Shown piece after piece: positions 1-15,046 of a DNA stretch of 15,046 nucleotides. The notes under the pieces are model-generated. The model was given only the letters and a program-made list of their open reading frames with translations, was not told the DNA's origin and ran no database searches. Each line of letters begins with the position of its first letter. Positions within the stretch are counted from its first letter, which is position 1. Location: contig JAGBEM010000005.1 in NCBI GenBank assembly GCA_017936985.1, positions 1 to 15,046 of the forward strand, read 5' to 3'. The position numbers and the translations under genes are program-made. This DNA comes from Oscillospiraceae bacterium (GTDB lineage: Bacteria > Bacillota_A > Clostridia > Oscillospirales > Oscillospiraceae).

Positions 1-330
1 CGACACTCCCTCAGTCAAAAATCAGAGATTTTTGCCAGCAATTGTAAAGGTATGATTGCCACTGACAATCATAGAGATTGTCAATTCGCTGCGCGGAGCA
101 CCACCTCAAAGAGGAAGCCGAGGGTGTGGCAGAGCGCAGCGAATCGAAATGAATCGCTTGCCGGTGGCAAGCGCACCTTTATCTATTGCTGCCGCACTGG
201 AGCAACCATCCAACAGCTCCATAAAATCCCAATTTCTTGGCTGGAAAAAGAAATTCCGAAAAGGGCTTTTCAAGGGACGCAAAATATTGTAAACTAGACC
301 CATAGATCAGGAACGGAGCGAAGCATACGG
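1..330. repeat. Gene-free region with a cluster of perfect hairpins
   Basis: I see no convincing gene in this stretch; the short open frames lack ribosome sites and family resemblance. It is dense in inverted repeats. CAAAAATC (16-23) pairs with GATTTTTG (27-34). GACAATC (64-70) pairs with GATTGTC (76-82). An 11-bp stem, ATTCGCTGCGC (84-94) with GCGCAGCGAAT (134-144), encloses a small CCTC/GAGG hairpin. CGCTTGCC (155-162) pairs with GGCAAGCG (166-173). A looser AATTTCTT/AAGAAATT pair lies at 231-255. The flanking CTCCCTCAGTC...GCCAGC context resembles REP-type palindromic repeats that I recall from clostridial intergenic DNA, but I cannot confirm the family. The stretch could also be the 3' end and terminator of a gene upstream of the window. 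Confidence 0.55.
264..297 (+). promoter_or_regulatory. Weak candidate promoter for the recD2 operon
   Basis: A TTTTCA element followed after 17 bases by TAAACT lies about 35 bases before the recD2 start. Both hexamers deviate from consensus, so this is only the best candidate I can see in the gap; the operon may also be read from upstream of the window. The start codon itself has only a distant GGAG (315-318, 12 bases away). Confidence 0.25.
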
Positions 331-2541
331 ATGCAACAGGAATTGGAAATTATCCAGGGCACAGTCAGTGCTGTGGTTTATCAGAATTACGATAACGGTT
401 ATGCGGTGCTGCGGCTGTCGGTAGGCGGCGGTCAGTCGGTGACGGTGGTGGGAACCATTCCGCTGCCGGCAGTGGGTGAGCGGCTCATGGTTACCGGCAA
501 GTGGAGCACACATCAAAGCTACGGCCAGCAGTTTGAGGCGGAGTTTTTGGAGCGGCTGCTGCCCCAGACCAGCATGGAGATCCTGAATTATCTGGCAAGT
601 CGGATCATCAAGGGAATCGGACCCAAAACGGCGACCCGGATCGTGGAGCGGTTTGGAGATCAGACCCTGATCGTCATGGAGCGCGAGCCGGAAAGACTTG
701 CCGAGGTGTCCGGTATCTCCCGGGAAAAAGCCAGAGCCATCGGCGAGGAATTTAAACGCCGGGTGGGAATGCGGCAGTTGATGGAGTTTTTTGCGCAGCA
801 TCAGCTTCCTGCGGAGCTGGCTGTCCGGGCATACAAGTTGTACGGTGAGGGTACGGTAGAGCTGCTTTATGAAGATCCGTATCTTCTGATGGAAGAAGGT
901 CTGGAAGCGCCCTTTGGTGCGGTGGACCGGTTTGCTATCGAGATCGGTGTGGATGGGGAAGATCCCCGGCGTGTACGGGCCGGTATCCTGTTTGAACTGA
1001 CCTACAATCTGACGGCAGGACACAGCTTTTTGCCCCAGGACAAATTAGTGGCGGCATCTGCACAGCTGCTTTCTGTGGAGATGGAGGCTGTCAGCCAAAG
1101 TCTGGAAACAATGATCGAAAATCAGCAACTGATCCGTTCAGCCCTGGCCGGGATCACAGTGATCTATTTGCCCCAGCTTTTTGAAGCGGAAACTTACATT
1201 ACAGACCGGATGCTCTCTGGCAGCTTACTTTCGTATCCGGAGCCTAAGAACTTAAATGCGTTGATGGGCGCAGTAGCCCAGGATAGCGGCCTGGCCTATT
1301 CTGCGCAGCAGGAGCAGGCCATCCGCCAGGCGGCTTCGGCAGGAATTTTGCTGATCACTGGCGGTCCCGGCACCGGCAAGACGACCATTTTGAAAGGGAT
1401 CTTGTCTATGCTGGGGCAGATGCAGCTGAAATGTCTGCTGGCTGCACCTACGGGAAGAGCCGCCAAGCGGCTCTCTGAGGTAACAGGAGAGGAAGCCTCC
1501 ACCATCCACAGACTGCTGGAAGCCGGGATCGATCCGGCAACAGGGAAGATGTGCTTTGTCCGGGATGAAGCCAATCCGCTGAAGGCAGATGTGGTGATCG
1601 TGGACGAGATGTCCATGGTGGATGTGCTGCTTTTGGACAGCTTGCTTCGGGCAGTGCCTCCGGGAAAACGGCTGATTTTTGTAGGTGACCCGGATCAGCT
1701 GCCGCCGGTGGGACCCGGTTCGCCCTTTAGCGATATGCTCCGCAGCGACAGGCTGCCCACTGTGCGCTTGACGGAAATTTTCCGGCAAGCCCAGGAAAGC
1801 CTGATCGTTATGAATGCCCACAGAGTCAACAACGGTCAGATGCCGGAGCTGCGCAATGTGAAAAGCGACTTTTTCTTCCTGAACTGCCGTTCGGAAGAGG
1901 AAGTGCGGCAGACCATCCAGGGTTTGTGTACCACCAGACTGCCCAAAAACATGGGGATCAGCGCGGAACAGATCCAGGTGCTTTCGCCTACAAGAAAAGG
2001 CGGTGTGGGGACTGGGGTGCTGAACCAGATGCTGCAGGGAGCGCTGAATCCGGCTGATCCCGGGAAAAAGGAACGTCAGTTTGGGGATTTTGCCTTCCGG
2101 GAAGGTGACCGGGTGATGCAGATCCGCAACAACTATGATATTATGTGGAAAAAGTGCGACGGCAGTGCTGTGGGAACCGGCATTTTCAATGGGGATGTGG
2201 GTATCATTTCCACCATTGACCCTTACGCGGAAACTATGACAGTGGTATTTGACGACCGGGAGGCAGACTACGATTTTACCCAGCTGGGCGAGCTGGAGCC
2301 GGCTTATGCCATGACAGTACACAAAAGCCAGGGCAGTGAGTACCGGGCGGTGATCCTGTGTGCGTGGAACGGTTCGCCGTATCTGCTGAGCCGCAGTGTG
2401 CTGTACACGGCCATCACCAGAGCCAGAGAATTGCTGATCATTGTAGGAAGGCCGGAAACGGTGGCGGCTATGACGGAAAATGCAAAGCGCAACCGCCGGT
2501 ATACCGGGCTGAAGCTGCGGCTGCAGGGGAAGACGGAATGA
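331..2541 (+). CDS. recD2: RecD2-type ATP-dependent DNA helicase (SF1B)
   Basis: The 736-residue product matches the length and layout of RecD2, the RecBC-independent 5'-3' DNA helicase linked to DNA repair and replication-fork maintenance. It opens with the family-typical N-terminal OB-like segment (EIIQGTVSAVVYQN). A helix-hairpin-helix motif follows at residues 93-109 (IKGIGPKTATRIVERFG). The helicase core has Walker A GGPGTGKTT (344-352), Walker B VVIVDEMSM (421-429), GDPDQLPPVGPG (452-463), AMTVHKSQGSEY (660-671) and the arginine motif VLYTAITRARE (690-700). The start is chosen because the family begins just before this OB-like segment. The ribosome site is poor: GGAG at 315-318, 12 bases upstream. 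The stop overlaps the next gene by four bases (ATGA), so translation is probably coupled. No RecB or RecC is present, as usual for RecD2. Confidence 0.95.
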   Translation: MQQELEIIQGTVSAVVYQNYDNGYAVLRLSVGGGQSVTVVGTIPLPAVGERLMVTGKWSTHQSYGQQFEAEFLERLLPQTSMEILNYLASRIIKGIGPKTATRIVERFGDQTLIVMEREPERLAEVSGISREKARAIGEEFKRRVGMRQLMEFFAQHQLPAELAVRAYKLYGEGTVELLYEDPYLLMEEGLEAPFGAVDRFAIEIGVDGEDPRRVRAGILFELTYNLTAGHSFLPQDKLVAASAQLLSVEMEAVSQSLETMIENQQLIRSALAGITVIYLPQLFEAETYITDRMLSGSLLSYPEPKNLNALMGAVAQDSGLAYSAQQEQAIRQAASAGILLITGGPGTGKTTILKGILSMLGQMQLKCLLAAPTGRAAKRLSEVTGEEASTIHRLLEAGIDPATGKMCFVRDEANPLKADVVIVDEMSMVDVLLLDSLLRAVPPGKRLIFVGDPDQLPPVGPGSPFSDMLRSDRLPTVRLTEIFRQAQESLIVMNAHRVNNGQMPELRNVKSDFFFLNCRSEEEVRQTIQGLCTTRLPKNMGISAEQIQVLSPTRKGGVGTGVLNQMLQGALNPADPGKKERQFGDFAFREGDRVMQIRNNYDIMWKKCDGSAVGTGIFNGDVGIISTIDPYAETMTVVFDDREADYDFTQLGELEPAYAMTVHKSQGSEYRAVILCAWNGSPYLLSRSVLYTAITRARELLIIVGRPETVAAMTENAKRNRRYTGLKLRLQGKTE

Positions 2542-3209
2542 AGATCAAGGAAATGATTTTGCGACTGCTGTTCCCACCGAAATGTGTACTGTGCGGAAAG
2601 CTGCTGCAGGAAGAAGAAACGGATCTTTGCCACAGCTGCCGCACCGATACGGAAGAATGCCCGGTGAGCAGACAAAGGAAGCTGCCCTTTCTTGACAGTT
2701 GGCTCGGTGTTTGGTATTATGAAGGCTGGGTAAGGCGAAGCATTATTCGCTTCAAGTTCCGCGGCGCAAGAGCTTATGCTGCCTGCTATGGCAGGCTCCT
2801 TGCCATGAAGCTGCGCAACGAACATCCCGAGGGCTTCGATTTGCTGACTTGGGTGCCTGTCAGCGGCTTGCGGAAGCTTTTCCGGGGCTATGACCAGGTG
2901 GAGCTGATCGCCCACACTGTGGGACAGGAACTGGAAATGGAGCCGATAGCACTTTTGAAAAAGGTGCGTCACAACCGGCCGCAGTCCTCCATCAAAGGAG
3001 ATGCCCACCGCCGGGCCAATGTGTTGGGCGTGTATCGGGTGACAGAGCCGGATGTGCTGAAAAACAAAAAGATTTTACTGCTGGATGATGTGATCACCAC
3101 CGGTTCGACGGTGGGGGAATGCGCCCGTGTCCTGCTGACAGCAGGCTGCGCAGAGGTTCACTGCGGTGCGGTTGCAGTGACCCGACGGGGCAAAAAACAA
3201 AGTAGGTGA
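2538..3209 (+). CDS. comF: ComF family phosphoribosyltransferase-like protein
   Basis: The 223-residue product has the ComF/GntX layout. An N-terminal zinc finger is formed by C16, C19, C31 and C34 (CVLC and CHSC pairs). An RGYDQ motif near residue 116 follows, and the phosphoribosyltransferase PRPP-binding loop LLLDDVITTGSTV lies at 180-192. In naturally competent bacteria ComF works with the DNA-uptake machinery, helping single-stranded DNA enter the cytoplasm. Its relatives occur widely in non-competent species, so competence cannot be inferred here. The ATG at 2538 overlaps the recD2 stop (ATGA). The open frame extends further upstream inside recD2, but residues before this methionine do not resemble ComF. 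The pairing with recD2 suggests a DNA-metabolism operon. Confidence 0.92.
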   Translation: MKIKEMILRLLFPPKCVLCGKLLQEEETDLCHSCRTDTEECPVSRQRKLPFLDSWLGVWYYEGWVRRSIIRFKFRGARAYAACYGRLLAMKLRNEHPEGFDLLTWVPVSGLRKLFRGYDQVELIAHTVGQELEMEPIALLKKVRHNRPQSSIKGDAHRRANVLGVYRVTEPDVLKNKKILLLDDVITTGSTVGECARVLLTAGCAEVHCGAVAVTRRGKKQSR

Positions 3210-3214
3210 AGGTT

Positions 3215-4252
3215 ATGCAATTATTTTCTCATGATCTGGGCATCGACCTGGGTACTGCCAATGTGCTGATCTATGTGGATGGCAAGGGTGTTGTAGTCCG
3301 GGAACCCTCTGTAGTAGCGGTGGACAAGAACACAGGCAAGATCCTGGAGGTCGGTTCTGCGGCGCGGAATATGCTGGGCCGTACGCCGGGCAATGTGGTT
3401 GCCATGCATCCGCTGAAGGATGGCGTGATCTCCGACCATGAAATGACGGTGCGGATGCTCCAGTCGCTGTTCCGGGAGGCTGCCAAGTCCTCGCTGTTTA
3501 CCCCGAAGCCCCGTGTGGTCATCTGTGTGCCCAGCGGCGTTACGGAAGTGGAAGAGCGGACTGTGATCAATGCGGCCATCGATGCCGGTGCAAGAAGAGC
3601 TTACCTGATCGAAGAACCCCTGGCGGCTGCATTGGGTGCTGGCCTGGATATTAAGGGCCCCAACGGTCAGATGGTGGTGGATATGGGCTGCGGTACTACG
3701 GATGTGGCGGTGCTTAGCCTGAACGGCGTGGCTGTGTCATCTTCTATTAAGGTGGCCGGAAGTGCCTTTGACGAGGCCATCGGACGGTATGTTCGCCGCA
3801 AACACGGCGTGGTCATCGGTCAGGTCACAGCTGAGGATGTGAAGATCCAGATCGGCAGCGTGTACCCCCGGCCGGAGAATATCAGTATGAATGTCAAGGG
3901 CAGAGATGCCAAGACCGGTATGCCCCGGGAACTGACGCTGATGTCCTCGGAGATTTATGAGGTGCTGCGCCGTCCTGCCCGGCAGATCGCTGACGAAGTT
4001 CTGTCTGTTCTGGAAGAGACTTCTCCCGAACTGGTCAGCGATATTTCCGAAAACGGCATTACCCTGACCGGTGGCAGCAGCCAGATCTGGGGTATGGATA
4101 AGCTGCTGACGGAACGCACCGGTGTCATGTGTACGCTGGCTGACGATCCGGACTCCTGTGTGGCCTATGGCTGCGGCAAGAGCCTTGCCTGGATCAATCA
4201 TATGCAGGAAGGCCCTATCAATATCGCAAGAAAGCGCATTATGCGGCAATAA
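3215..4252 (+). CDS. mreB: MreB/Mbl-family rod-shape actin homologue
   Basis: The 345-residue product is a bacterial actin. Phosphate-1 loop: DLGIDLGTANVLIY (7-20). Phosphate-2 loop: VVDMGCGTTDVAVL (154-167). Adenosine motif: TLTGGSSQIWGM (283-294). MreB polymers lie under the membrane and guide the elongasome that builds lateral cell wall. I chose the ATG at 3215 because AGGTGA (3203-3208) sits at good distance and the N-terminus then fits MreB. A GTG at 3206 overlapping the comF stop would add three residues and has no ribosome site. The usual partners mreC and mreD are not next to it, which is common for Mbl or orphan MreB paralogues, so the exact paralogue is uncertain. It is the last gene before a strong terminator. 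Confidence 0.93.
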   Translation: MQLFSHDLGIDLGTANVLIYVDGKGVVVREPSVVAVDKNTGKILEVGSAARNMLGRTPGNVVAMHPLKDGVISDHEMTVRMLQSLFREAAKSSLFTPKPRVVICVPSGVTEVEERTVINAAIDAGARRAYLIEEPLAAALGAGLDIKGPNGQMVVDMGCGTTDVAVLSLNGVAVSSSIKVAGSAFDEAIGRYVRRKHGVVIGQVTAEDVKIQIGSVYPRPENISMNVKGRDAKTGMPRELTLMSSEIYEVLRRPARQIADEVLSVLEETSPELVSDISENGITLTGGSSQIWGMDKLLTERTGVMCTLADDPDSCVAYGCGKSLAWINHMQEGPINIARKRIMRQ

Positions 4253-4257
4253 GATAC

Positions 4258-4290
4258 AAACGCTCCGGAAAGCCGGAGCGTTTGTTTTTT
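4258..4290 (+). terminator. Rho-independent terminator of the recD2-comF-mreB transcript
   Basis: An 11-bp perfect stem, AAACGCTCCGG (4258-4268) with CCGGAGCGTTT (4273-4283), closes an AAAG loop. It is followed by TTTGTTTTTT and begins six bases after the mreB stop. Confidence 0.93.
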
Positions 4291-4302
4291 GCAAAAAAGG
4301 TA

Positions 4303-4331
4303 TTTACAAATTCTGTCTTTTCGTGTATGAT
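4303..4331 (+). promoter_or_regulatory. Sigma-70-type promoter for the folT leader
   Basis: TTTACA (4303-4308) and TATGAT (4326-4331) are separated by exactly 17 bases. The start of transcription would fall near 4338, precisely where the riboswitch P1 stem begins. This supports both calls. Confidence 0.85.
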
Positions 4332-4337
4332 AGCTCT

Positions 4338-4436
4338 GAACAGAGTAGGAGACCTCGCGTGAAGTGCCACCGGGACGGGGAGTTGCCCGGAGGACGAAGG
4401 AATTTTTCCGCGATGGGGTCACCGCACCCGCTGTTG
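4338..4436 (+). ncRNA. THF-I class (tetrahydrofolate) riboswitch aptamer
   Basis: The leader matches the THF-I riboswitch in order and pairing. P1 is AACAG (4339-4343) with CTGTT (4431-4435), followed by the conserved AGTAG. P2 pairs GACC (4351-4354) with GGTC (4417-4420). The conserved CGCGTGAAGTG (4357-4366 region) follows. P3 is CCACCGGG (4367-4374) with CCCGGAGG (4386-4393), containing one A-A mismatch. The conserved ACGAAG (4394-4399) comes directly after P3. The P3 loop ACGGGGAGTTG supplies CGGG (4376-4379) for a pseudoknot with CCCG (4427-4430). This class binds reduced folates and usually lowers expression of folate transport or synthesis genes. The gene downstream is a FolT-like transporter component, which agrees. 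The covariation model was not run. Confidence 0.88.
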
Positions 4437-4631
4437 CATATAGGAAATCCTCCTTTATGTAGCAACGATACTCGGTCGGGCGATCAGGCCGGCAGTTTTT
4501 GCTGTCCTTCCCCACGGGTGATCTGCAAACAGTACTCCCTTACGCCAGGCGTAGGGGATTTTTGTTTGCAGGCCGTTGGGACAGAAAGACTGTCTGCTTA
4601 TAAGCCTACTGCAAAAAAGGAGGCCTTTTTT
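4437..4631 (+). promoter_or_regulatory. Riboswitch expression platform ahead of folT
   Basis: This stretch of about 195 bases contains mutually exclusive pairings. GTTGC (4433-4437) can pair with GCAAC (4461-4465), which would break the 3' strand of P1. CGGGTG (4515-4520) is complementary to CACCCG (4425-4430), the pseudoknot strand. An anti-ribosome-site element CCTCCTTT (4449-4456) is complementary to AAAGGAGG (4616-4623). A terminator lies at 4536-4567. The ribosome site lies inside a perfect hairpin: AAAAAAGG (4613-4620), loop AGG, CCTTTTTT (4624-4631). The pairings are seen directly. Their role in switching is inference. Confidence 0.6.
4523..4571 (+). terminator. Intrinsic terminator within the folT leader (attenuator)
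   Basis: TCCCTTACGC (4536-4545) pairs with GCGTAGGGGA (4549-4558) through one G-U pair around a CAG loop, and TTTTTGTTT follows (4559-4567). An outer 8-bp pairing, CTGCAAAC (4523-4530) with GTTTGCAG (4564-4571), involves the T-run region and could compete or extend the structure. The position between a THF aptamer and folT fits ligand-controlled premature termination. Confidence 0.75.
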
Positions 4632-5726
4632 ATGGCAAGAACAGAAAAATCCACAGCACTGTATTCCCACCCGTTTTCCAAGGCGTACTGGCGTGATGCC
4701 GCCGCGGAACTGAAAGATGTCAAAATGCTGGTGATCACCGCGCTGATGATCGCCCTGCGAATCGCTTTGAAGCCCTTTGCGATCTATATCGGACCGCAAA
4801 TGGCGATTCAAACGGCTACCCTGGCAACGGCTTTGGGCGCAATGATCTTCGGCCCTGTGTTGGCAATTCCGGCGGCCATCATTTCCGACACCATCGGCTT
4901 TATGATCTTCCCCACAGGCGATTATTTCCTGCCCTTTGTACTTACAGAGATCGCCAGCACGATGATCTATGCTTTGTGTCTGTACCGGGCAAAGCCCAGC
5001 GCTACCCGCGTGATGATCGGAAGATTTTTGATCTGCTTTGTGGTGAATGTGATCCTGCAGCAATTGATCTTTGCCTGGCAGTATACCTATATGGGCAATC
5101 CGGACAAGGCGAAGGATGCTGTCATGGGAATCATGACAGTCGCTCGGATCTTTAAGAATGTATTTTTCTTCCCCATTGAAACGGTAGTCATTACCCTGTT
5201 TTTGAAGGTGCTTGTACCCATTACGGCCCGGGCAAAGCTGACCTACGGCAGCAGCAAGGGACTTGACTTTACCAAGAAGCAGCTGGCTACACTGCTGGTT
5301 TTGGTGGTAGTGGGCATCGGCAGCGCCATTGGCTATCTGAGCTACCGCTATACAGACACTTCCCGCAGTGCAGACTATACAGATGCACAGCGTGTGGAGG
5401 CCAACAAGGAAATGGCACAGCTGGTGCTGGACAAGTCCGACGATTGGGACAGCGAAAAGGTGTTCTGCGTGGTGGACAGCAAGTACCAGGGTCTGTTTGA
5501 GGCAGAAGCAGATTATACCGTTTCCATTTACATTCTGGACGAGGAAGCCTTTGCTGCCGGTCAGGCTGCGGACAGCAGCTATACGGAGGACACCCTGTGG
5601 GGCTACTCCAAGAGCGGCCCGAAGAAGGATAAGTATCAGTCGCTGGTTAAAGTGGGCACCTTGACGATGACACGGGATGAGTGGAAAAACGAGATCCTGA
5701 CTTTTGAAATCGAGGCACTTCAGTGA
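4632..5726 (+). CDS. folT: FolT-like ECF transporter S component with C-terminal ectodomain
   Basis: The product has 364 residues. Residues 1-200 form an ECF-type substrate-binding S component with about six membrane segments (roughly 31-50, 60-78, 80-94, 98-118, 127-149, 174-197). It contains the typical phrases ALMIALRIALK, IFGPVLAIPAAIISDTIGF and an FPTGDYF turn. S components dock on the shared EcfA-A'-T energising module, which is not in this window, to import vitamins. The THF riboswitch upstream points to folate. An ordinary S component ends near 170-200 residues. Here a seventh hydrophobic segment (217-237) leads to a polar domain (240-364) expected outside the membrane, rich in D, E, Y and K. 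The ATG at 4632 follows AAGGAGG (4617-4623) by eight bases. Longer in-frame extension upstream runs through the riboswitch and is not coding. Folate as substrate is inferred from the riboswitch. Confidence 0.87.
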   Translation: MARTEKSTALYSHPFSKAYWRDAAAELKDVKMLVITALMIALRIALKPFAIYIGPQMAIQTATLATALGAMIFGPVLAIPAAIISDTIGFMIFPTGDYFLPFVLTEIASTMIYALCLYRAKPSATRVMIGRFLICFVVNVILQQLIFAWQYTYMGNPDKAKDAVMGIMTVARIFKNVFFFPIETVVITLFLKVLVPITARAKLTYGSSKGLDFTKKQLATLLVLVVVGIGSAIGYLSYRYTDTSRSADYTDAQRVEANKEMAQLVLDKSDDWDSEKVFCVVDSKYQGLFEAEADYTVSIYILDEEAFAAGQAADSSYTEDTLWGYSKSGPKKDKYQSLVKVGTLTMTRDEWKNEILTFEIEALQ

Positions 5727-5731
5727 TACAT

Positions 5732-5762
5732 ACCGGGGGACGGTCAAGTCCCCCGGTTTTCT
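5732..5762 (+). terminator. Rho-independent terminator of folT
   Basis: ACCGGGGGAC (5732-5741) pairs perfectly with GTCCCCCGGT (5748-5757) around a six-base loop and is followed by a short T-run. It starts six bases after the folT stop. Confidence 0.88.
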
Positions 5763-5799
5763 TCGGAAGGATAAGGATGCACGAACACCAAACTGCAAT

Positions 5800-5828
5800 T
5801 TGACTTTATAGCATGAAGCGGTTATAAT
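5800..5828 (+). promoter_or_regulatory. Near-consensus sigma-70 promoter of the His-rich/cooT cassette
   Basis: TTGACT (5800-5805) and TATAAT (5823-5828) are spaced 17 bases apart. The untranslated leader is only about 20 bases, leaving no room for a riboswitch. Any metal control would have to be by a repressor, and I see no clear operator palindrome. Confidence 0.88.
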
Positions 5829-5854
5829 AAAGAAAAAACAAAGGAGCGATACTT

Positions 5855-6289
5855 ATGCATCTGGATCACGATCATATCGGCGGTCATTGCCATGACCACG
5901 AACATACCCATACCCACGAGCACACCCATGACGGTGTGACCCATTCCCACGCCCACAGCCATGCCCATGAGCATGACCATGCACATCCCCATGAGCATGA
6001 TCATCTCCATGAGCACGGTGCAGAGCACAATCATTCCCACGACTGCGGCGGCGATTGCTGCGGCTGTGCAGGCGGTTGCGAGCACACCCCCATGGAAGAA
6101 CTGGTGGCGCTGATGAAGTACATGGTCGGTCACAATGCGGCCCATGCCAAGGAACTGGCAGATCTGGCAGTACAGCTGGAAAAGGCCGGCAGCCACACCG
6201 CTTACGAGCAGGTTATGGCAGCTGTGTCTGACTTTGAAAAGGGCAATATGCGCCTGAGCGTGGTGCTGAGCAGCCTGGATGTGAAGTGA
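5855..6289 (+). CDS. Histidine-rich metal (probably nickel) binding protein, CooJ-like
   Basis: The product has 144 residues. Residues 2-62 are an extreme metal-binding tail: 27 histidines, mostly alternating H-x-H with D, E, T, S or A between. A cysteine cluster follows (C64, C68, C69, C71, C75). From about residue 80 to 144 the chain looks like a compact helical domain with an H93-x-x-x-H97 motif (VGHNAAHAKELADLA). This resembles the CooJ logic of a coiled helical domain with an HxxxH site plus a His-rich tail, here with the tail at the N-terminus. CooJ stores nickel and delivers it to carbon monoxide dehydrogenase together with CooT. The next gene encodes a CooT-family protein, which supports nickel handling, though zinc, cobalt or copper binding cannot be excluded. 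The ribosome site is AAAGGAG (5840-5846), eight bases before the ATG. No signal peptide, so it is cytoplasmic. Confidence 0.85.
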   Translation: MHLDHDHIGGHCHDHEHTHTHEHTHDGVTHSHAHSHAHEHDHAHPHEHDHLHEHGAEHNHSHDCGGDCCGCAGGCEHTPMEELVALMKYMVGHNAAHAKELADLAVQLEKAGSHTAYEQVMAAVSDFEKGNMRLSVVLSSLDVK

Positions 6290-6299
6290 GGGAACAGAT

Positions 6300-6491
6300 A
6301 TGTGCCTTTCGACTGTTTACAAGAACGCCAAAAGTGAAGAAACTGTGGTCATGAAAAATGTGATGGCCATTGAATGCAAGGACGGCTGCGTGATCCTGAC
6401 AGATTTAATGGAGCGCAGCGTGGCCATAGAAGGTCAGCTGGTCAGCGCCAATCTGGTGGACGGCTACGTCATTGTAAAGGAAAATGCATGA
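6300..6491 (+). CDS. cooT: CooT family nickel-binding protein
   Basis: The 63-residue product starts MCLSTVY, the signature of the CooT family, in which the Met-Cys N-terminus of a small beta-barrel dimer binds one nickel ion. The remaining sequence alternates short beta-strands (TVVMKNVMAIECKDGCVILTD and a hydrophobic C-terminal strand), consistent with that fold and the usual 60-70 residue length. CooT assists nickel delivery to carbon monoxide dehydrogenase in bacteria that have that enzyme, but many anaerobes carry orphan copies of unknown client. It follows the His-rich gene after ten bases, with a GAGGG ribosome site, so the two are almost certainly co-transcribed. No nickel enzyme gene is nearby. 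Confidence 0.85.
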   Translation: MCLSTVYKNAKSEETVVMKNVMAIECKDGCVILTDLMERSVAIEGQLVSANLVDGYVIVKENA

Positions 6492-6495
6492 ACAA

Positions 6496-6525
6496 AAAGG
6501 ACGCCCGATGGGCGTCCTTTGTTTT
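6496..6525. terminator. Bidirectional terminator between cooT and the TraB-domain gene
   Basis: AAAGGACGCCC (6496-6506) pairs perfectly with GGGCGTCCTTT (6510-6520) around a three-base loop. GTTTT follows on the plus strand, and the A-tract before the stem gives a T-run on the minus strand. It begins five bases after the cooT stop and serves both convergent genes. Confidence 0.92.
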
Positions 6526-8842
6526 ATGTATAGGATACAAGCTCGACGGTGTAGCCGGCGTTGCGCAGGCCGTTTACCAGACCGGTTTCGCCCAGCACAT
6601 GGGCAAGACCCACGGCGTAGAATACGGTGTTGCCGCTTTCCAGCTGGGTGATGGCAGCACTGAGCATGACGGCATTTCGCTGGGTGATCATAATGTCGTT
6701 ATACTGGTTGTAAAGTGCCAGCTCCTCGCCAGAAAGGCCGGCGTTGTCCGGGAAAATGGCGGCGGTCAGGGCAGCCTCATCCCCCTGACACCAAAGCTCG
6801 TACAATTCCTGGAGGGAATGACAGGAGGCGGTACAGCCTGTGGATACAGTGCCATCCAACAGATTGGACTGGACGGCGTCGGAAAAACCGGTGAGCATAC
6901 GCAGTTGGCCGATACCGGATTCAATATCGATGATGGTCTTATCCTGGGATTTTGCCAGACGCAGAAGCCGCAGGTCTACACCCTTCTGGGTGGAGAGGGA
7001 ATGACTTTGGTTGAGGTAGAAATCCTCCAGCAGACTGTTCCAGACCGCCACTTTCATATAAGGTGCGTTCAAATTGGCATTGCCGCTGGCCAGGATCAGA
7101 TCCATTGCGCTTTGGTACAGCTCGCTGCTTACATGGGATTCTGTGGCAGAGCCGTCGGTATAATAGTAGATTTCGGCAAGCTGCTCCTGCAAGGAGGCAT
7201 CCGCCATTACCTGGCTTTCAAAAGCCAGTGTGTCAAACTCCACAGCCAGGGCGGAGGATGCGCGCAAAGCGTCGGTGATCTGCTGGGGCAGGTAAGCGGT
7301 CCGGTTGTCACCGGCATGGATCGTACCCAGTAGCCACAGCTGTTGGCCGTTGGCACCGGTGGCCTTGTAGAACAGAGGGGTTGCTATTTTCTTGGGGGCG
7401 GTTTCTGTTTCCAGCTCGCCGGTGGCGGTGTAGTAAGCGTCGGTACCGGACAGGGTCAGCGCCTGATCCAGTTGATAAGTCAGCTGATAGGGGACTTCGC
7501 CGAAGGTGTGCACCCGGGCAAAGGAAATGCCCATGGCGGTAGGCAGACCGGTCTGCTTGTTGATGGAAAGATAACCGGCAGCTTCCTTGGTTTCATAGGA
7601 GCTGGCGATGCCGTCCAGATCCATGTTCAAAAATGCGCCGATGTCGGCAGAAAGGTCGTTGCAATATGCCTCGTTGCCGGTAAAGCGAAGAATGTAAAAA
7701 TCACCGGTATCCGTCAATTCTGCGCCGGCAAGATAGCCGGTAGCAAACAGACCGGAGAGGATGGTGTCTTCGATGCTGGTACGCATGGTTTCTTCGGTCA
7801 TGCCGGTCTGGACAGTGGGGTCAGCACCGTTCACGGAGCTGGTGCAGACGCCGTTTGCAAAACGGTAATCCTGGGAGGAATTGGCGGCCTGTCCCCGGTA
7901 ATCGGTGACCTGAATGGTGCTGGTAAGTGCGGCTACCATGTCTTTCCCGGCGCCGCTGATCGCTGCACTGGCCTGGCGGCTGCGGATCAGCGGGATCGCC
8001 TGGCTGTAAATGGTTTCGGAAATGCTGCACTGCATGTCTTGGGCGGTGAAAACAGCGCCCACAGCGCGCATCAAAAGCCGGGGGGCTTCCAGACAGGAGA
8101 GGCTGACAACGTTATCGGTGTGTTCAGGATGGACTGCGGACAGATCCAATGTTTCCGGGGCAGAAACCCGGACGGTGACCTCCAGCGTGTAGCTGGCAGG
8201 ACCGCAGGTGTAGGTTGCATTGTAAGAAGATGCGATCAGATTGCCGGAAGTGTCCATTGTGGCAGTACCGGAGGCGCTGACAAGCACTGCGTAAGCAGAG
8301 CCGGATACCCAGGCTTCCAGTGCGGTGGGGTCAGCAAAGGTGATGACGGAACCGTCGGTATTGGTTTCCATTTCCATGGAGCTGTACAGCGCACCATCCA
8401 ATAGGACTGCAGGCAGCTGCTGGCTTACAAAATCAGCAGCAGATACGCTGGATGCAAAGGTGCAGCCGCTGATCTGGCTGTAGGCGGTGCCCTCGCAGTA
8501 AGTAAGGGTGTGCTCAGCGCTGAGGGTGCCGTAGGTCAAGTCTTCTTCAATGATGGCTTCCATGGTATCTGTACCAATGCCGCTGAAAGAGGCGGTGCCG
8601 GTGGCTTTTTCGCTGTAGTTCTGTCCGCCAACGGTGCGTATTTCCGAAAGGGTATAGTCCAGGATCTGGTTGGAAGCCGTCAGAATGTCTTCTCTTGCCT
8701 GGGTATAGCGCTCCTGAACGGAAAGCGCAGGTGCGATGGTTTCAGTGGGCTGCGTATCTTCGGGCTTTTCGGAACAGCCAAACATACCGAGAAGAAACAC
8801 AGCGCACAGAAAAGCGGCGATCAGCTGTAATGCAGTTTTCAT
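6524..8842 (-). CDS. Lipoprotein with duplicated LolA-like modules and C-terminal TraB/GumN domain
   Basis: The product has 772 residues. A lipoprotein-type signal (KTALQLIAAFLCAVFLLGMFGC) suggests lipidation at C23, though MFG before the cysteine is not ideal. Two similar beta-rich modules follow, about 40-255 and 260-480. They share motifs such as MDTSGNLIASSYNATYT and INKQTGLPTAMGISF and resemble LolA/LppX-type lipoprotein folds. Residues about 490-770 are a TraB/GumN (Tiki-like) domain with the signature GTIH (506-509) and GLAH (745-748). In the Tiki branch such residues bind metal for proteolysis. The bacterial role is unknown. The ATG at 8842 is preceded by AAGGAGA at seven bases; the frame could be extended 32 residues upstream, but that would hide the signal peptide. 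It is transcribed alone from its own promoter. Confidence 0.85.
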   Translation of the reverse strand: MKTALQLIAAFLCAVFLLGMFGCSEKPEDTQPTETIAPALSVQERYTQAREDILTASNQILDYTLSEIRTVGGQNYSEKATGTASFSGIGTDTMEAIIEEDLTYGTLSAEHTLTYCEGTAYSQISGCTFASSVSAADFVSQQLPAVLLDGALYSSMEMETNTDGSVITFADPTALEAWVSGSAYAVLVSASGTATMDTSGNLIASSYNATYTCGPASYTLEVTVRVSAPETLDLSAVHPEHTDNVVSLSCLEAPRLLMRAVGAVFTAQDMQCSISETIYSQAIPLIRSRQASAAISGAGKDMVAALTSTIQVTDYRGQAANSSQDYRFANGVCTSSVNGADPTVQTGMTEETMRTSIEDTILSGLFATGYLAGAELTDTGDFYILRFTGNEAYCNDLSADIGAFLNMDLDGIASSYETKEAAGYLSINKQTGLPTAMGISFARVHTFGEVPYQLTYQLDQALTLSGTDAYYTATGELETETAPKKIATPLFYKATGANGQQLWLLGTIHAGDNRTAYLPQQITDALRASSALAVEFDTLAFESQVMADASLQEQLAEIYYYTDGSATESHVSSELYQSAMDLILASGNANLNAPYMKVAVWNSLLEDFYLNQSHSLSTQKGVDLRLLRLAKSQDKTIIDIESGIGQLRMLTGFSDAVQSNLLDGTVSTGCTASCHSLQELYELWCQGDEAALTAAIFPDNAGLSGEELALYNQYNDIMITQRNAVMLSAAITQLESGNTVFYAVGLAHVLGETGLVNGLRNAGYTVELVSYT

Positions 8843-8891
8843 AAAGAATCTCCTTATCGAATGACGTAAGTGTCGATCTTTGGATAGCTGC

Positions 8892-8920
8892 ATCATAGCA
8901 GAAATGCGTATAAATGTCAA
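8892..8920 (-). promoter_or_regulatory. Consensus sigma-70 promoter of the TraB-domain gene
   Basis: On the minus strand TTGACA (8915-8920) and TATGAT (8892-8897) are 17 bases apart, and TGC directly before the -10 gives an extended -10. The leader before the start codon at 8842 is about 45 bases. Confidence 0.9.
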
Positions 8921-8937
8921 ATTTGTAACCTTTTGCA

Positions 8938-8976
8938 CAAGAAAACTGCGGCAGGGACGCGCCTCTGCCGCAGTTT
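8938..8976 (-). terminator. Terminator of tex
   Basis: AAAACTGCGGCAG (8942-8954) and CTGCCGCAGTTTT (8964-8976) form a 13-bp perfect stem around a nine-base loop. On the minus strand it follows the tex stop by about a dozen bases and ends in TTTTC. It also insulates the next promoter from read-through. Confidence 0.85.
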
Positions 8977-8987
8977 TAAACCTTCAT

Positions 8988-11114
8988 TTATGCTTTTGCC
9001 TGCTTCATGCTCAGACCGATGCGGTGGCGCTTTTCATCCACGGAAAGGACGAGTACCTTCACCACGTCGCCTACCTTTACCGCTTCGCTGGGGTGGCGCA
9101 GCCGGCGGTTCGCAACCTCGGAAATGTGGACAAGGCCGTCCTGATGAACGCCGATGTCAACGAATACGCCGAAGTCAATGACATTGCGTACAGTGCCGGT
9201 CAGCTCCATGCCGGGCTTCAGGTCTTTCATTTCCAGGACATCCTTGCGCAGGATGGGGGCCGGCAGCTCGTCACGGGGATCCCGGCCAGGCTTGCTCAGC
9301 TCCTTGACGATGTCCAGCAGCGTAGGTTCGCCTACGCCACATTCGGCAGCGGCTTTGGAAATGCCGTAGCTTTCCAGCTTGGCGGCAAGGTCTTCTTTTT
9401 TGCAGTCCAGCAGCTTCAGCAGCTGTTTGGCAGCGGCATAGGATTCCGGATGGACACCGGTATTGTCCAGCAGTTCCTTGCTCTCGGGAACCCGGAGGAA
9501 GCCTGCGCACTGCTCAAAAGCCTTGGGACCCAGCTTGGGGACTTTTTTCAGCTGGGCGCGGCTGCCAAAGGGGCCGTTTTCTTCCCGGTAGGCTACGATG
9601 TTTTTGGCGGTGGTGGCACTTAAACCGGAAACCTGCTGCAAAAGAGAGCGGGAAGCGGTATTGACATCCACGCCCACAGCGTTCACGCAGTCTTCGACTA
9701 CGCCGTTCAAAGCGGTATCCAGCTCCTTCTGAGGGCAGTCGTGCTGATACTGACCCACGCCGATGGCCTTGGGGTCGATCTTAACAAGCTCGGCCAGAGG
9801 ATCCTGCAGCCGCCGGGCAATGGAAACCGCAGAGCGCAGGTTTACATCGTATTCCGGGAATTCCTCTGCAGCCAGAGGGGAAGCGGAGTATACGGACGCA
9901 CCGGCTTCGTTGACGATCATATAGCTGGCGTCGGGGAAGCTGTGCAGAAGCTCTACGGTCATGGCTTCGGTCTCCCGGGAGGCGGTGCCGTTGCCAATAG
10001 CGATGTGCTGTACCTTATGGGCGCGCATCAGACCGGAGAGGATGACGATGGCTTCCTGTTTTTTCTTCTCGCTGAAGGTGGGGTACACCACAGAGGTTGC
10101 CAGCACCTTGCCGGTGGGATCAACGACTGCGACTTTGCAGCCGTTGCGGTATCCGGGGTCAAGACCCATGGTCACACAGCCCTTGACCGGGGGCTGCATC
10201 AAAAGGGGCTTCAAATTCAGCGCAAAATTCTGGATCGCGCCGCTGTAAGCCCGTTCGGAAAGGTCGCTGCGGACTTCTCTCTGGACGGAGGGGAAGATCA
10301 GACGCTCGTAAGCATCCTCGGCGGCTGCCCGGACAAACTGGGAGACGGTGGATGTAGGCTTCAGCGCGGCACGGATAACACAGGCAGCGCCTTCGTTGCC
10401 GGGCAGCACCACATTGGGCTTCAAAATTCCCTCTTTTTCGCCCCGGTTGATGGCCAGGATCTGGTGATCCAGCAGCCGGGAAACAGGCTGGGAGAAGTCA
10501 TAATACAGCCGGTAGACACTGTCGGTGTCCGGGTCCTCTGCGTGGCAGGTCAGCACCGCTTTCCGGCTGATCAGCTCCCGCAGACTCTTGCGGATAGCTG
10601 CGTCGTCGGACAGGTCTTCTGCGATGATGTCAGAGGCACCGGCTAGGGCATCTTCCACCGTTTCCACGCCTTTTTCGGGGTTTACATAAACTTGAGCCAA
10701 AAGGGCAGGATCCTGTCCATCCTGAGCAAAAATCGCCGCTGCCAAAGGCTCTAAGCCCTTTTCCCGGGCGATGGAGCCACGGGTACGGCGCTTCTGCTTG
10801 TAGGGGCGGTACAGGTCTTCCACTTCCGCCAGTGTGGCGGCATTATCGATGGCGGCGGACAGTTCGTCTGTCAGCTTGCCCTGGTTTTCGATAGAGTTTT
10901 TCACTTCGTCCCGGCGCTGCTGCAGATTGCGCAGATAGGTCAGCCGCGTCTCCAGGGTGCGAAGCACGGTGTCATCCATGGCGCCGTGCATTTCCTTGCG
11001 GTATCGGGCAATGAAGGGGATGGTATTGCCCTCGTCCATGAGAGAGATGACATTTTCGATATATTCCAGCTTCTGCCCCAGTTCGGCAGAGAGGATCTGA
11101 GAAATCGTTTGCAT
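8988..11114 (-). CDS. tex: Tex family RNA-binding transcriptional accessory protein
   Basis: The 708-residue product has the full Tex domain order. An N-terminal helical region (1-200) contains GNTIPFIARYRKEMHGAMDD and DLYRPYKQKRRTR. A YqgF/RNase H-like domain starts at MGLDPGYRNGCKVAVVD (316-332). A helix-hairpin-helix pair spans about 490-550 (NTASRSLLQQVSGLS). A C-terminal S1 RNA-binding domain spans about 635-704 (LTGTVRNVIDFGVFVDIGVHQDGLVHIS region). Tex binds nucleic acid and affects transcription and RNA turnover, and it is widely conserved in Firmicutes. The start ATG is preceded by AAGGAGT at seven bases. It is transcribed alone between its own promoter and terminator. Length and motifs look intact. 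Confidence 0.95.
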   Translation of the reverse strand: MQTISQILSAELGQKLEYIENVISLMDEGNTIPFIARYRKEMHGAMDDTVLRTLETRLTYLRNLQQRRDEVKNSIENQGKLTDELSAAIDNAATLAEVEDLYRPYKQKRRTRGSIAREKGLEPLAAAIFAQDGQDPALLAQVYVNPEKGVETVEDALAGASDIIAEDLSDDAAIRKSLRELISRKAVLTCHAEDPDTDSVYRLYYDFSQPVSRLLDHQILAINRGEKEGILKPNVVLPGNEGAACVIRAALKPTSTVSQFVRAAAEDAYERLIFPSVQREVRSDLSERAYSGAIQNFALNLKPLLMQPPVKGCVTMGLDPGYRNGCKVAVVDPTGKVLATSVVYPTFSEKKKQEAIVILSGLMRAHKVQHIAIGNGTASRETEAMTVELLHSFPDASYMIVNEAGASVYSASPLAAEEFPEYDVNLRSAVSIARRLQDPLAELVKIDPKAIGVGQYQHDCPQKELDTALNGVVEDCVNAVGVDVNTASRSLLQQVSGLSATTAKNIVAYREENGPFGSRAQLKKVPKLGPKAFEQCAGFLRVPESKELLDNTGVHPESYAAAKQLLKLLDCKKEDLAAKLESYGISKAAAECGVGEPTLLDIVKELSKPGRDPRDELPAPILRKDVLEMKDLKPGMELTGTVRNVIDFGVFVDIGVHQDGLVHISEVANRRLRHPSEAVKVGDVVKVLVLSVDEKRHRIGLSMKQAKA

Positions 11115-11146
11115 TGGGTTACTCCTTATATTCAGTATCGGAGCAT

Positions 11147-11155
11147 ATCATAGCA
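11147..11155 (-). promoter_or_regulatory. Extended -10 promoter element for tex
   Basis: TGCTATGAT on the minus strand, about 35 bases before the tex start codon. No good -35 element is visible at the right distance, so it would depend on the extended -10. The same TGCTATGAT is used by the TraB-domain gene promoter. Confidence 0.5.
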
Positions 11156-11176
11156 CAAAATCAGGAAAATGGGAAG

Positions 11177-11208
11177 TAAAAAATCCGCCCCATTTACCGG
11201 GGCGGATT
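11177..11208 (-). terminator. Terminator of the M56 metallopeptidase gene
   Basis: AATCCGCCCC (11182-11191) and GGGGCGGATT (11199-11208) form a perfect 10-bp stem with a seven-base loop. On the minus strand the stem runs into TTTTTT. It lies nine bases beyond the stop codon of the M56 gene. Confidence 0.9.
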
Positions 11209-11216
11209 CAGAAAGA

Positions 11217-14200
11217 TTACAGGGGTTTGATGGCGTTCAGAAGTATCTGCGCTGTTTCGGAGTGCTGTTTGTTGGCGGAAAGATCCCGGATGCTTTCGCA
11301 CAGGGCGCGATAGCTTTCGGTTTCTTCAGAGGGATGCAGGGCATAGTTGATGGAACTGGCGACCCGGGTAATGGTGGCGTTCTCCTCCTTGGACAGCATA
11401 CTGACAAATTCCTGGGGTGCAAGGAAGAAGCATTCTTTCAGAATGGTAGACCACTCATCGGCGTAAGCGCCGTCAGTTTGCAGGTGGAAGAGCCAGTGGT
11501 AGGCATCCGCGTCGGTGCTCTCAAAGCCGTAGATATCCATGTTGGTATAGGGGAGGGTAAAGGTTTGGTCAGTATCATGCACATGGAAGGTGAGCATCAG
11601 CGTGCCGTCGCTGCTCAAATACAAAGTGTTGCTTTGCATGGCAAAGGTGTCGAAGGCCAGGTTTTGCAGCAATTTGGCCTGGTCGTCGGCATTGTCCAAG
11701 GGGTTAGCTTTGTAGTACTCGATCAGATCATGGGTGCGGTGCTGCAGGAAGGCCGGGTAGCTTTCGTTCAGGTGCTGTTTGGCAAGCTCTGCGGTGGTAA
11801 CATTTTTTCCGGTTGACACATCCAGCATCCAGGTAGAATTAAGAGCAAGACCCGCATAGTCTTCCTGGGTGATCTGGACAGTCAGAACATGATTGTAAAG
11901 ATATGTGGTGTAGTGGATGCTCTTGAAGGATGGCGTGCTTTTCTGATCAAAGGAATAACGGGCAGCTTGCACACGGTACTGGAATGTCTGACGAATTGCT
12001 TCGTTGATAGCGATAGCGTCGGTGCTGAAAGGTGTAATGGCGGGTAGCCGGACGGAGCAGGTGAAGGCATTTCCGTCGCCGGCATCCCAGGAGATACTAT
12101 AGTCGTAGATGGTGGATACCAATGTTTCCGCACTCAGGACATCCGGCTTACTGCAGAGCACGATGCTGGAGGGGATGTCCGGCATCAGCAGTGTAGAGTC
12201 TATAGGCTTGCTGCTTTTGGTGTGGTTACAGGCTTCCCGGACAGTAGGAACTTCACCTTTATTAGTAGAACTTATGGAGTTTTCACCGTATGGTTCAGGG
12301 TAGTCCTCTTTTAGCTGCATGAGATCATGGATCGTCAGATAACCCAATTCATATGCTTCCGTCAGAGAATAGAATTTGCCCTGGTGGTAAGCATAGGGGT
12401 GCTGATAATCACAGTATGTGAATGTGATGCTGCCTACGGTCTCACTGGTTACTGCTTGAGGATATTCATAAGGGCCATCTACGAACACCACATAGGTGTC
12501 GCTGAATGCGCCCCGGAAGCGCAGGGACAGGTCAGCGGTGGTGTAATGCTCTCGGAAAGCATCATCTTCCACGGTGTTATAGTAGGCTTCCATGATCTCC
12601 TTTTCGATGGTGATCTCTGTTTCGGAAGAGGTAGTGTGGTTACAGGCTGCCCGAACAATGGGGATCGTCCCTTGGGAGGAATGATCAGTATTGTCGTAGT
12701 CTTCCTTTAGCGCCAGCAGTTCGGCTTTGGTCATGAGCCCCAGATCGTAGGCTTCCTGCAGCGTGTGGAAGCGGCCCTGGTGATAGGCGTACATAGTCTG
12801 CGTGCTGTGGTACTCAAAACTAACGCCGGCCACTGTTTCGGTCCAATCAAGATCTCCATGTTCAAACGGCCCATCCACGAAGACCGCATACAGATCGCTA
12901 AATGCGCCCCGGTAACGTACACACAGATCATCGGCGGTATAACTTGTATCGGAATACCATTTCATATAAGCCTGCCGGATCTCTTCGTCGATGGTGATCT
13001 CTGTATTCGGGGGTGTGGTGTGGGTGCAGGGCTGCCGGATGGTGGGAACTTCGCCCTTGTTGGAGTAGGAGTCTAACGAAGTACCGCCGCATGCAAGATA
13101 GTTTTCCTTTAGCTGCATCACATCATCCATTGTCAGATAGCCCAGTTCGTAGGCTTCTGCCAGAGAATAAAAGCTGCCCTGATGGTATGCTTTCATCCTG
13201 TGTGAGTCCGGATATCTGAATGTGACGCCACCCACGACATCGCTGCACATCATTGTTAGATATGCATAAGGACCATCTACAAATACCACATAGGTATCGC
13301 TGAAGATGCCCCGGAAGCGCAGGGACAGGTCAGCGGTGGTGTAATGCTCTCGGAAAGCATCGTCTTCCACAGTGTTATAGTAGGCTTCAATGATCTCTTC
13401 TTCAATGGACTGCTCTGGGGCATCACCATAACCTGCAAAGGCACAGCCGGTGATGATGGCAACGGCCAGCGCCAAACAAATGGCAGCGGCAAGGATGATT
13501 TTCGGCTTTTTCACGATGCAGTTCACCCTTTCTTTCAGTTGCTCCTTGGTTTCGTGCATGGCGGTAGCAGTCTCCAGAAAACGGCGGGGGGAAACGGAAT
13601 TGGCAACCATGTCCACCAGGGTCTTTCCGTAGGCCAGACGCTCCTGCTCACCAAGTTTTTTGATCACACTTTCGTCGCAGGCAAGCTCGCAGTCCCGTTT
13701 GGACAGGCCTGCGGCCAACCAAACCAGAGGGTTGAACCAGTAGATGCACAGGCACAGACAGCGAACCAGTGCCCAGATATGATCTGCGTGATGCAAATGA
13801 GTCAGCTCGTGGGTCAGCACATGACGGCGGACTTGGCTGTCCTCTGTACAAATCGGTGTCAGATAGATGGTGGGCTTTACAATTCCAAACAGGCAGGGAG
13901 AAGACAAACTGCCGTCCACTTTTACGGTTACCGGGCAATCCGGGATCTCCATGGCTTTGGCGGTACGCTTCAGATTCTGGTGGAAGGTGATGTTGATGCA
14001 CAAAAACCAGATCGCCATGGCGATCATACCCACGATCCAGACGACAACAGCCGCCTGCCCCAAGGTAGGGGCGGTGATGGCATGTGCCACATCTGCTTCC
14101 AAGCGATCCTGCACAACGGGAAGCACGATGTCCTGACCCTCATGCTCTTTGATGACCTGTTGGTAAATTTCCTCGACCGGACGATCGTTTTGGATAAGCT

Positions 14201-14525
14201 GCTGTTCCAGTTCAGTCTGCACGTCGGGGATAAAGACCGTGTGACCGCTGTAGATGTAATCGGTGATGACCTGCTGGTACACTTCCTCCCGGGAAGGGCC
14301 GGAAATGGGATTCCGGGCTGCCTCAGTGATGACTTCGGTGACGGGTTTGGTCTGGCTGAGAATGCTGAACCGGAAGCTGCCAAACTGCACCGGGATCAGC
14401 AGACGCAGAGCCACCAAAAGCCACATACCGTAGATCAAACGGTGGCTGACTCTCTTACGAAAGATGGCCCGCAGAAGGATCAGCGCCAGGATCATGACAG
14501 AAGATGTGAGGATGATCTCGTTCAT
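11217..14525 (-). CDS. BlaR1-like M56 metallopeptidase with three ectodomain repeats
   Basis: The product has 1102 residues, far longer than BlaR1 (about 580-600). Residues 1-363 form the M56 core: membrane segments near 3-21, 31-48, 157-180, 253-272 and 342-362; the zinc motif HELTH (H239, E240, H243); and the downstream RDCELACDE motif (277-285). In BlaR1 and MecR1 this domain cleaves or triggers removal of a BlaI/MecI repressor after an outside signal. The extracellular part has no penicillin-binding domain. It has three copies of a module of about 120 residues (about 376-500, 512-628, 640-766), each with RFRG/RYRG-FSD-Y-FVDGP, AYHQG-F-L-EAY-LG-T and a closing C-x-H-T. A C-terminal domain (about 795-1040) loosely recalls DUF4163/DUF3298 (PdaC/RsiV-type). 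Start overlaps the BlaI-like stop (ATGA), so the pair is translationally coupled. Confidence 0.85.
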   Translation of the reverse strand: MNEIILTSSVMILALILLRAIFRKRVSHRLIYGMWLLVALRLLIPVQFGSFRFSILSQTKPVTEVITEAARNPISGPSREEVYQQVITDYIYSGHTVFIPDVQTELEQQLIQNDRPVEEIYQQVIKEHEGQDIVLPVVQDRLEADVAHAITAPTLGQAAVVVWIVGMIAMAIWFLCINITFHQNLKRTAKAMEIPDCPVTVKVDGSLSSPCLFGIVKPTIYLTPICTEDSQVRRHVLTHELTHLHHADHIWALVRCLCLCIYWFNPLVWLAAGLSKRDCELACDESVIKKLGEQERLAYGKTLVDMVANSVSPRRFLETATAMHETKEQLKERVNCIVKKPKIILAAAICLALAVAIITGCAFAGYGDAPEQSIEEEIIEAYYNTVEDDAFREHYTTADLSLRFRGIFSDTYVVFVDGPYAYLTMMCSDVVGGVTFRYPDSHRMKAYHQGSFYSLAEAYELGYLTMDDVMQLKENYLACGGTSLDSYSNKGEVPTIRQPCTHTTPPNTEITIDEEIRQAYMKWYSDTSYTADDLCVRYRGAFSDLYAVFVDGPFEHGDLDWTETVAGVSFEYHSTQTMYAYHQGRFHTLQEAYDLGLMTKAELLALKEDYDNTDHSSQGTIPIVRAACNHTTSSETEITIEKEIMEAYYNTVEDDAFREHYTTADLSLRFRGAFSDTYVVFVDGPYEYPQAVTSETVGSITFTYCDYQHPYAYHQGKFYSLTEAYELGYLTIHDLMQLKEDYPEPYGENSISSTNKGEVPTVREACNHTKSSKPIDSTLLMPDIPSSIVLCSKPDVLSAETLVSTIYDYSISWDAGDGNAFTCSVRLPAITPFSTDAIAINEAIRQTFQYRVQAARYSFDQKSTPSFKSIHYTTYLYNHVLTVQITQEDYAGLALNSTWMLDVSTGKNVTTAELAKQHLNESYPAFLQHRTHDLIEYYKANPLDNADDQAKLLQNLAFDTFAMQSNTLYLSSDGTLMLTFHVHDTDQTFTLPYTNMDIYGFESTDADAYHWLFHLQTDGAYADEWSTILKECFFLAPQEFVSMLSKEENATITRVASSINYALHPSEETESYRALCESIRDLSANKQHSETAQILLNAIKPL
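12468..13385 (-). repeat. Intragenic repeat pair within the M56 gene ectodomain
   Basis: The DNA at 13266-13385 (residues 381-420) and 12468-12587 (residues 647-686) is nearly identical, with about ten differences over 120 bases and more than 50 consecutive identical bases. The encoded segments match at 39 of 40 residues (I407 versus A673). The middle module (about 512-628) is clearly homologous but much more diverged. This shows a recent duplication or gene conversion between modules 1 and 3. Confidence 0.9.
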
Positions 14526-15046
14526 TTGGCATCCTCCTCAGCTTCTTTCAAAATGGCATAAAGCTCGTCAATATCGGCCTTAGTCAGATCCTTGTGATGG
14601 ACCATAGCGCTGAGCATCAGTCCGATGCTTCCCTGATATGCCCGATCCAGCAAGGAGTGGGTTTCCCGGGAGACTACATCGTCCCGGCTGACGGCACTGC
14701 GGAAGATCTTGGTGCGGCCATCGGTATCATAGACCGCCACCAGTATGGTATCGTCGGGCTCTGCCAGCCGCTGCATATCCAGCGGGATGGGCACGGTATG
14801 GCTGGGGGCCTTCGCCCACTGGGCGTACAGACGGCGGGGAGAGGTCTCATAAGGCTTCCAGTTGCTTCCGTTGGCGTCGGTGGAGCCGAACACGATCCGT
14901 TGATCCGCTCCATAGGCCGTGCCGCTGCCGTCCCGCTCCGTGTTCCAGCCGGTGAGAACGTAGCCATCCCGCCGGAAGGTATCCCCGGAGAGCTGCAGGT
15001 TATATGTCGTCTCTCCGCTCTTCCGCTGGGTATTTCCTATTCGGAA
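14522..15046 (-). CDS. Chimeric partial gene: Listeria-Bacteroides repeat joined to BlaI C-terminus
   Basis: The frame is open from the window edge to the stop, 174 visible residues, with the true start outside. The last 65 residues, from about GRTKIF at 14719, match the dimerisation half of BlaI/MecI repressors: AVSRDDVVSRETHSLLDRAY, QGSIGLMLSAMV and a closing acidic helix. BlaI proteins carry a winged-helix DNA-binding half of about 70 residues before this point. Here that place is taken by a surface-protein repeat of the InlB B-repeat/Listeria-Bacteroides type: DTFRRDGYVLTGWNTERDG (22-40), GSGTAYG, then LYAQW (73-77), followed by PLDMQRLAEPDDTILVAVYD. The stop overlaps the M56 start, the normal BlaI-BlaR1 layout. 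It may be a true in-frame fusion, a remnant pseudogene, or an assembly junction near 14720. DNA binding is not expected from the visible part. Confidence 0.7.
   Translation of the reverse strand, partial: FRIGNTQRKSGETTYNLQLSGDTFRRDGYVLTGWNTERDGSGTAYGADQRIVFGSTDANGSNWKPYETSPRRLYAQWAKAPSHTVPIPLDMQRLAEPDDTILVAVYDTDGRTKIFRSAVSRDDVVSRETHSLLDRAYQGSIGLMLSAMVHHKDLTKADIDELYAILKEAEEDAK

Follow-up and report, generated by a model that had tools for sequence, protein, structure and literature searches.

The window (the whole stretch of DNA analysed, 15,046 nucleotides) ends in an open frame in which a piece of a surface-repeat protein runs directly into the C-terminal half of a BlaI-type repressor, and the question that this locus raises is whether a living genome carries such a fusion or whether it came about during assembly. 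If true, the fusion would be a one-off loss of the DNA-binding half of a repressor and would leave an orphaned M56 sensor. We consider it most likely to be a contig-end chimera produced by assembly (probability about 86%), and the case stands as a caution that apparent domain fusions at contig ends can stem from a word of approximately 21 nt common to two genes.

The fusion frame and its two parents

The features of the window are given in Table 1. When the fusion protein (P0001) was compared with Pfam, Penicillinase_R (PF03965) was matched at residues 107 to 168, covering positions 54 to 115 of the 115-position profile only (E = 7.2e-10). Profile positions 1 to 53, the winged helix, remained unmatched in the fusion, and no blastp match between the winged-helix half and P0001 was obtained at E ≤ 1e-3. 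The Listeria-Bacteroides repeat (PF09479) was found at residues 16 to 51 (E = 4.5e-4) with 20.7 bits, under the curated cut-off of 27. Of the two families that the first-pass annotation had proposed for a profile check, the repressor half was thus recovered and the repeat stayed below its cut-off. The TGA of the fusion overlaps the ATG of the M56 gene in an ATGA, as that annotation had described for a BlaR1-like gene. As letters, the frame is confirmed, which does not make it a feature of a living genome.

Table 1. Features of the window by position and strand
Feature	Position	Strand	Remarks
Fusion frame	14522-15046	minus	Uninterrupted, 174 aa; runs off the contig end (base 15046) without closing
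Putatively foreign arm (piece of Listeria-Bacteroides / InlB B-type repeat)	14735-15046	minus	Fusion residues 1-104; cut by contig end
Join interval	14713-14734	minus	VYDTDGR and one further base; parents have no more than 22 nt in common
BlaI/MecI-type C-terminal (dimerisation) half with stop codon	14522-14712	minus	Identity to P0003; PF03965
M56 (BlaR1/MecR1-type) membrane metallopeptidase gene, 1102 aa	11217-14525	minus	PF05569, E = 1.5e-43
THF (tetrahydrofolate) riboswitch	4339-4435	plus	89.7 bits
Gene downstream of THF riboswitch	~4608-5726		Possibly a folate transporter
Histidine-rich protein (144 aa) and CooT-family gene	5855-6491	plus	CooT: PF10133, E = 4e-18
TraB/PrgY/GumN-family protein, 804 aa	6524-8938	minus	PF01963 (C-terminal domain), E = 5.8e-45

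The fusion protein was searched against approximately 5.8 billion proteins, with candidates restricted to those of 0.55 to 1.75 times the query length that had short words in common with the query, and 308 matches were obtained; the list covers the best 120 of them. Among these best 120 of 308 matches, the fusion protein was recorded once (one member on one contig of 15,046 bases). Since this contig and the window are equally long, the window very probably is the whole contig with the fusion at its very end, and the join sits 312 to 334 bases from the contig end.

Two exact parents were found for the two halves. Residues 1 to 111 of the fusion were identical (111/111) to residues 108 to 218 of P0002, a 265-aa repeat protein on a different contig (16,782 bases), and residues 105 to 174 were identical (70/70) to residues 57 to 126 of P0003, which heads a series of ordinary BlaI-type repressors of approximately 126 aa among the best 120 of the 308 matches and which is intact (126 aa) and matches positions 2 to 115 of the PF03965 profile. 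Both parents matched together at fusion residues 105 to 111 only (VYDTDGR, window 14714 to 14734), and the join was placed between VYDTDGR and TKIF. A single frame connecting a Listeria-Bacteroides repeat to the C-terminal half of BlaI, a join at DGR-TKIF near 14720, and a short stretch common to both protein types at that point had all been claimed in the first-pass annotation, and each of these is borne out by the open frame and the parent identities. Because the flanking codons differ (ACC for Thr versus ATG for Met, and GCG for Ala versus an Ile codon), the common run cannot exceed 22 nt, and we infer from the protein identities that the overlap of the parents consists of 21 to 22 nt of identical DNA. 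The join word was present once in the window when up to 3 mismatches were allowed. The reading frame continues through the join, an outcome that a codon-by-codon overlap would yield in an assembly scenario and in an in vivo scenario alike. Joins of this kind can be detected from proteins alone, by two exact but separate parents whose matches overlap by a few residues.

Compared with known systems, the fusion resembles BlaI/MecI/CopY repressors (PF03965) in that its C-terminal half is that of P0003 and still overlaps an M56 gene by ATGA, and it resembles a BlaI-BlaR1-type operon in that the frame adjoins and couples to an M56 peptidase gene; however, the winged helix of such repressors is gone and an unrelated piece stands in its place. 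The arm likewise equals a stretch of the repeat-holding P0002, as in Listeria-Bacteroides / InlB B-type proteins (PF09479), but it is cut by the contig end, is below the family cut-off on its own, and lacks the C-terminus present in P0002 and P0066.

Native layouts of the two arms

P0002 scored 26.1 bits for PF09479 (cut-off, 27), its sequence appears to start inside the repeat region, and several of its relatives carry PF09479 in precomputed annotation. When P0002 was used as the query, 20 proteins including itself were found at E ≤ 1e-5, and Penicillinase_R was present in P0001 only. A diverged relative of P0002, P0066 (85/107 residues identical, 79%), runs past the position of the join with the same continuation as P0002 (MV.VV.AAS.AELAELYG...) and has the same kind of C-terminus, which argues that the layout of P0002 is the native one. 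The converse possibility, that P0002 is the chimeric partner, was rejected on the grounds of this continuation in P0066. The sequence upstream of the join equals P0002 and holds no degraded BlaI, so a pseudogene whose winged helix had decayed was likewise rejected.

On the repressor side, the BlaI C-terminal half was present in 118 of the 120 proteins listed (the best 120 of 308 matches), and 116 of these 118 had the winged helix too, the exceptions among the 118 being the fusion frame and P0034. Among the listed proteins, the fusion thus stands apart on its repeat side and on its repressor side. P0034, on a contig of 651 bases, has an abrupt join of its own, after which 79/79 residues are identical to P0031 and before which a weak polysaccharide-deacetylase match (20.5 bits) falls below the cut-off; it is likely a second BlaI chimera.

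The GC content of the arm (14735 to 15046) was 62.8%, compared with 52.9% for the BlaI half and 52.1% for the M56 gene. This value was above that of all 14,401 overlapping 312-nt windows of positions 1 to 14712, and the GC3 of the arm (0.769) was reached by 3 of 3,602 windows taken within eight genes, each of the three lying in the Tex gene. The step in composition fits a foreign arm but falls short of proof, given the overlapping windows and the variability of surface genes.

We fetched 22 BlaI loci from genomes (L008 to L023 and L029 to L034), these being the best-scoring places picked by BlaI match, so that the presence of an intact BlaI is partly a matter of selection. An M56 match lay beside the BlaI place in all 22 loci, and at a tblastn threshold of 1e-8 BlaI itself was detected in 21 loci (L009 was the miss). 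The best relative of the M56 protein of the window was 89% identical over 58% of the query (best 120 matches). Closer relatives were represented by proteins alone. By eye, 13 pairs of an intact BlaI and an M56 relative with equally long longest contigs were seen in the two lists of 120 (for example, P0005 and P0121, both with a longest contig of 17842 bases), which suggests, but does not prove, that the paired blaI and M56 genes are neighbours. An intact winged-helix blaI beside an M56 gene appears to be the rule at such loci in relatives, and what belongs at 14522 is very probably a normal blaI gene that is coupled to a BlaR1-like M56 gene. The comparison with close relatives that had been proposed earlier therefore came out near the result named there as pointing to an assembly error, with an intact winged-helix BlaI present and, as judged by equally long contigs, apparently next to M56 relatives.

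In the long C-terminal part of the M56 protein, three similar stretches of approximately 115 aa can be made out by eye, e.g., AYYNTVEDDAFREHYTTADLSLRFRG; these matched no Pfam family above the cut-off. In P0121, a close relative that is shorter (965 aa), there are perhaps fewer copies.

DNA of the parents was also searched for. No relative was detected in viral contigs (21 stretches in one search and 1 in another), and in a scan of genome contigs 65 stretches matched, which yielded 7 loci, each of them distant (best match, E = 9e-16 at 37% identity; top segment identity, 64% over 28 residues). BlaI matches in further genome searches did not exceed 55% identity, and close BlaI matches numbered 0 of 398 at E 1e-40 and 0 of 235 at E 1e-36. 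The best match of the Tex protein of the window in 391 genomes was 69%, and hence no close species is among those 391. No 21-mers were shared between the window and the fetched loci in 396,314 bases on both strands, which is too little sequence to be informative.

Assembly or rearrangement

Under the chimera reading, the real locus would hold an intact winged-helix BlaI-type repressor gene of approximately 126 aa with its stop overlapping the start of the M56 sensor-protease gene. The assembler, coming up from the M56 gene, would exit blaI at the 21- to 22-nt word that encodes VYDTDGR, cross at that word into an unrelated surface-repeat protein gene that also contains it, run 312 bases into this gene, and stop. 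The contig probably comes from a short-read metagenome; we infer the assembler, its k-mer size, and the origin of the parents from different places of one sample. A k of 21 is the smallest k-mer of common short-read metagenome assemblers, and a "k-min 21" setting occurs together with MEGAHIT in 59 papers. In a simple base-composition model, chance 21-mers of a 378-nt gene amounted to approximately 0.2 per 1e9 bases, so such words are to be expected across a large metagenome assembly. With its separate sources, a word about as long as the smallest usual k-mer, and a position near the contig end, the fusion is like chimeric contigs from short reads, the match being at protein level only, and each of its sides likewise equals a different, separate source, with a 7-residue overlap (protein level). 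Several points count against a chimera. Longer final k-mers and read-pair checks in assemblers often cut such joins; if the P0002 contig is from the same assembly, more than 300 bases would stand on two contigs, which is abnormal for a plain de Bruijn graph; and at approximately 0.0006 (6e-4) chance 21-mers per 3-Mb genome in the same model, two genes of a single such genome would rarely share a word of this length by chance. Chimeric contigs can form where graphs are linked via common k-mers, according to a review (PMC7299287).

A recent rearrangement in one strain would produce a sequence identical to that of a chimera; here, illegitimate recombination at a microhomology of approximately 21 to 22 nt would have fused a surface-repeat gene with the last part of blaI. 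The DNA-binding half would be lost and the M56 gene would be expressed from the transcript of the surface gene. The uninterrupted frame and the preserved ATGA coupling agree with such an event, a very young age would be consistent with both halves being 100% identical to their parents, and the word is, from general knowledge, long enough for microhomology-mediated joining; we nevertheless regard it as unlikely, given that no intermediate or decayed form was present among the best 120 of 308 matches. Three grounds favour assembly over a join in vivo: the fusion protein is recorded on one contig only, the join lies close to the end of that contig, and the step in composition agrees with a foreign origin of the arm. 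With an intact blaI gene, the repressor dimer stays bound to its operators until the M56 protein, once activated, brings about inactivation of the repressor. In Staphylococcus aureus, as described in PMC3406092, two proteolytic steps are involved and BlaR1 promotes the cleavage of BlaI. Were a one-strain microhomology join real, its product would be an M56-coupled, DNA-binding-deficient protein with a surface-repeat protein before the BlaI dimerisation half, and it could act as a dominant-negative anti-repressor, an idea to which we give slightly less credence than to the rearrangement itself. A distant parallel is a MecR2 variant without a DNA-binding domain, which acts on the MecI repressor, presumably via the dimerisation domain (PMC3406092).

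An established family of repeat proteins, surface-anchored or secreted, that contain the BlaI dimerisation domain and might titrate or replace the repressor and provide the M56 sensor with a new output is highly improbable. The uninterrupted frame and the ATGA coupling are all that speaks for such a family, but the repeat half was found in 0 of the 117 other listed proteins with a BlaI C-terminal half (best 120 of 308), and P0002 and P0066, the sole other listed proteins with the repeat half, both lack the BlaI half. A widespread fusion family was rejected, with no second example either in the best 120 of 308 matches or in the 20 P0002 matches, and none of the papers searched contained both "Listeria-Bacteroides repeat" and "BlaI". 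The suggestion of the first-pass annotation that a DNA-binding half had been replaced, that the M56 sensor had lost its output, or that a new type of fusion had formed is left unsupported, as the parents occur separately elsewhere and the fusion is recorded on one contig, at its end; the alternative that it had named, an assembly chimera, is the reading favoured here.

Other features of the window

The product of the gene downstream of the THF riboswitch gave weak, below-cut-off matches to S components of ECF transporters. The histidine-rich protein, whose N-terminal part is very rich in this residue, had no Pfam match and lies directly before the CooT-family gene, an arrangement that suggests a metal-handling pair. 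In the 804-aa protein, the TraB/PrgY/GumN-family domain is preceded by a long N-terminal part that had no Pfam match.
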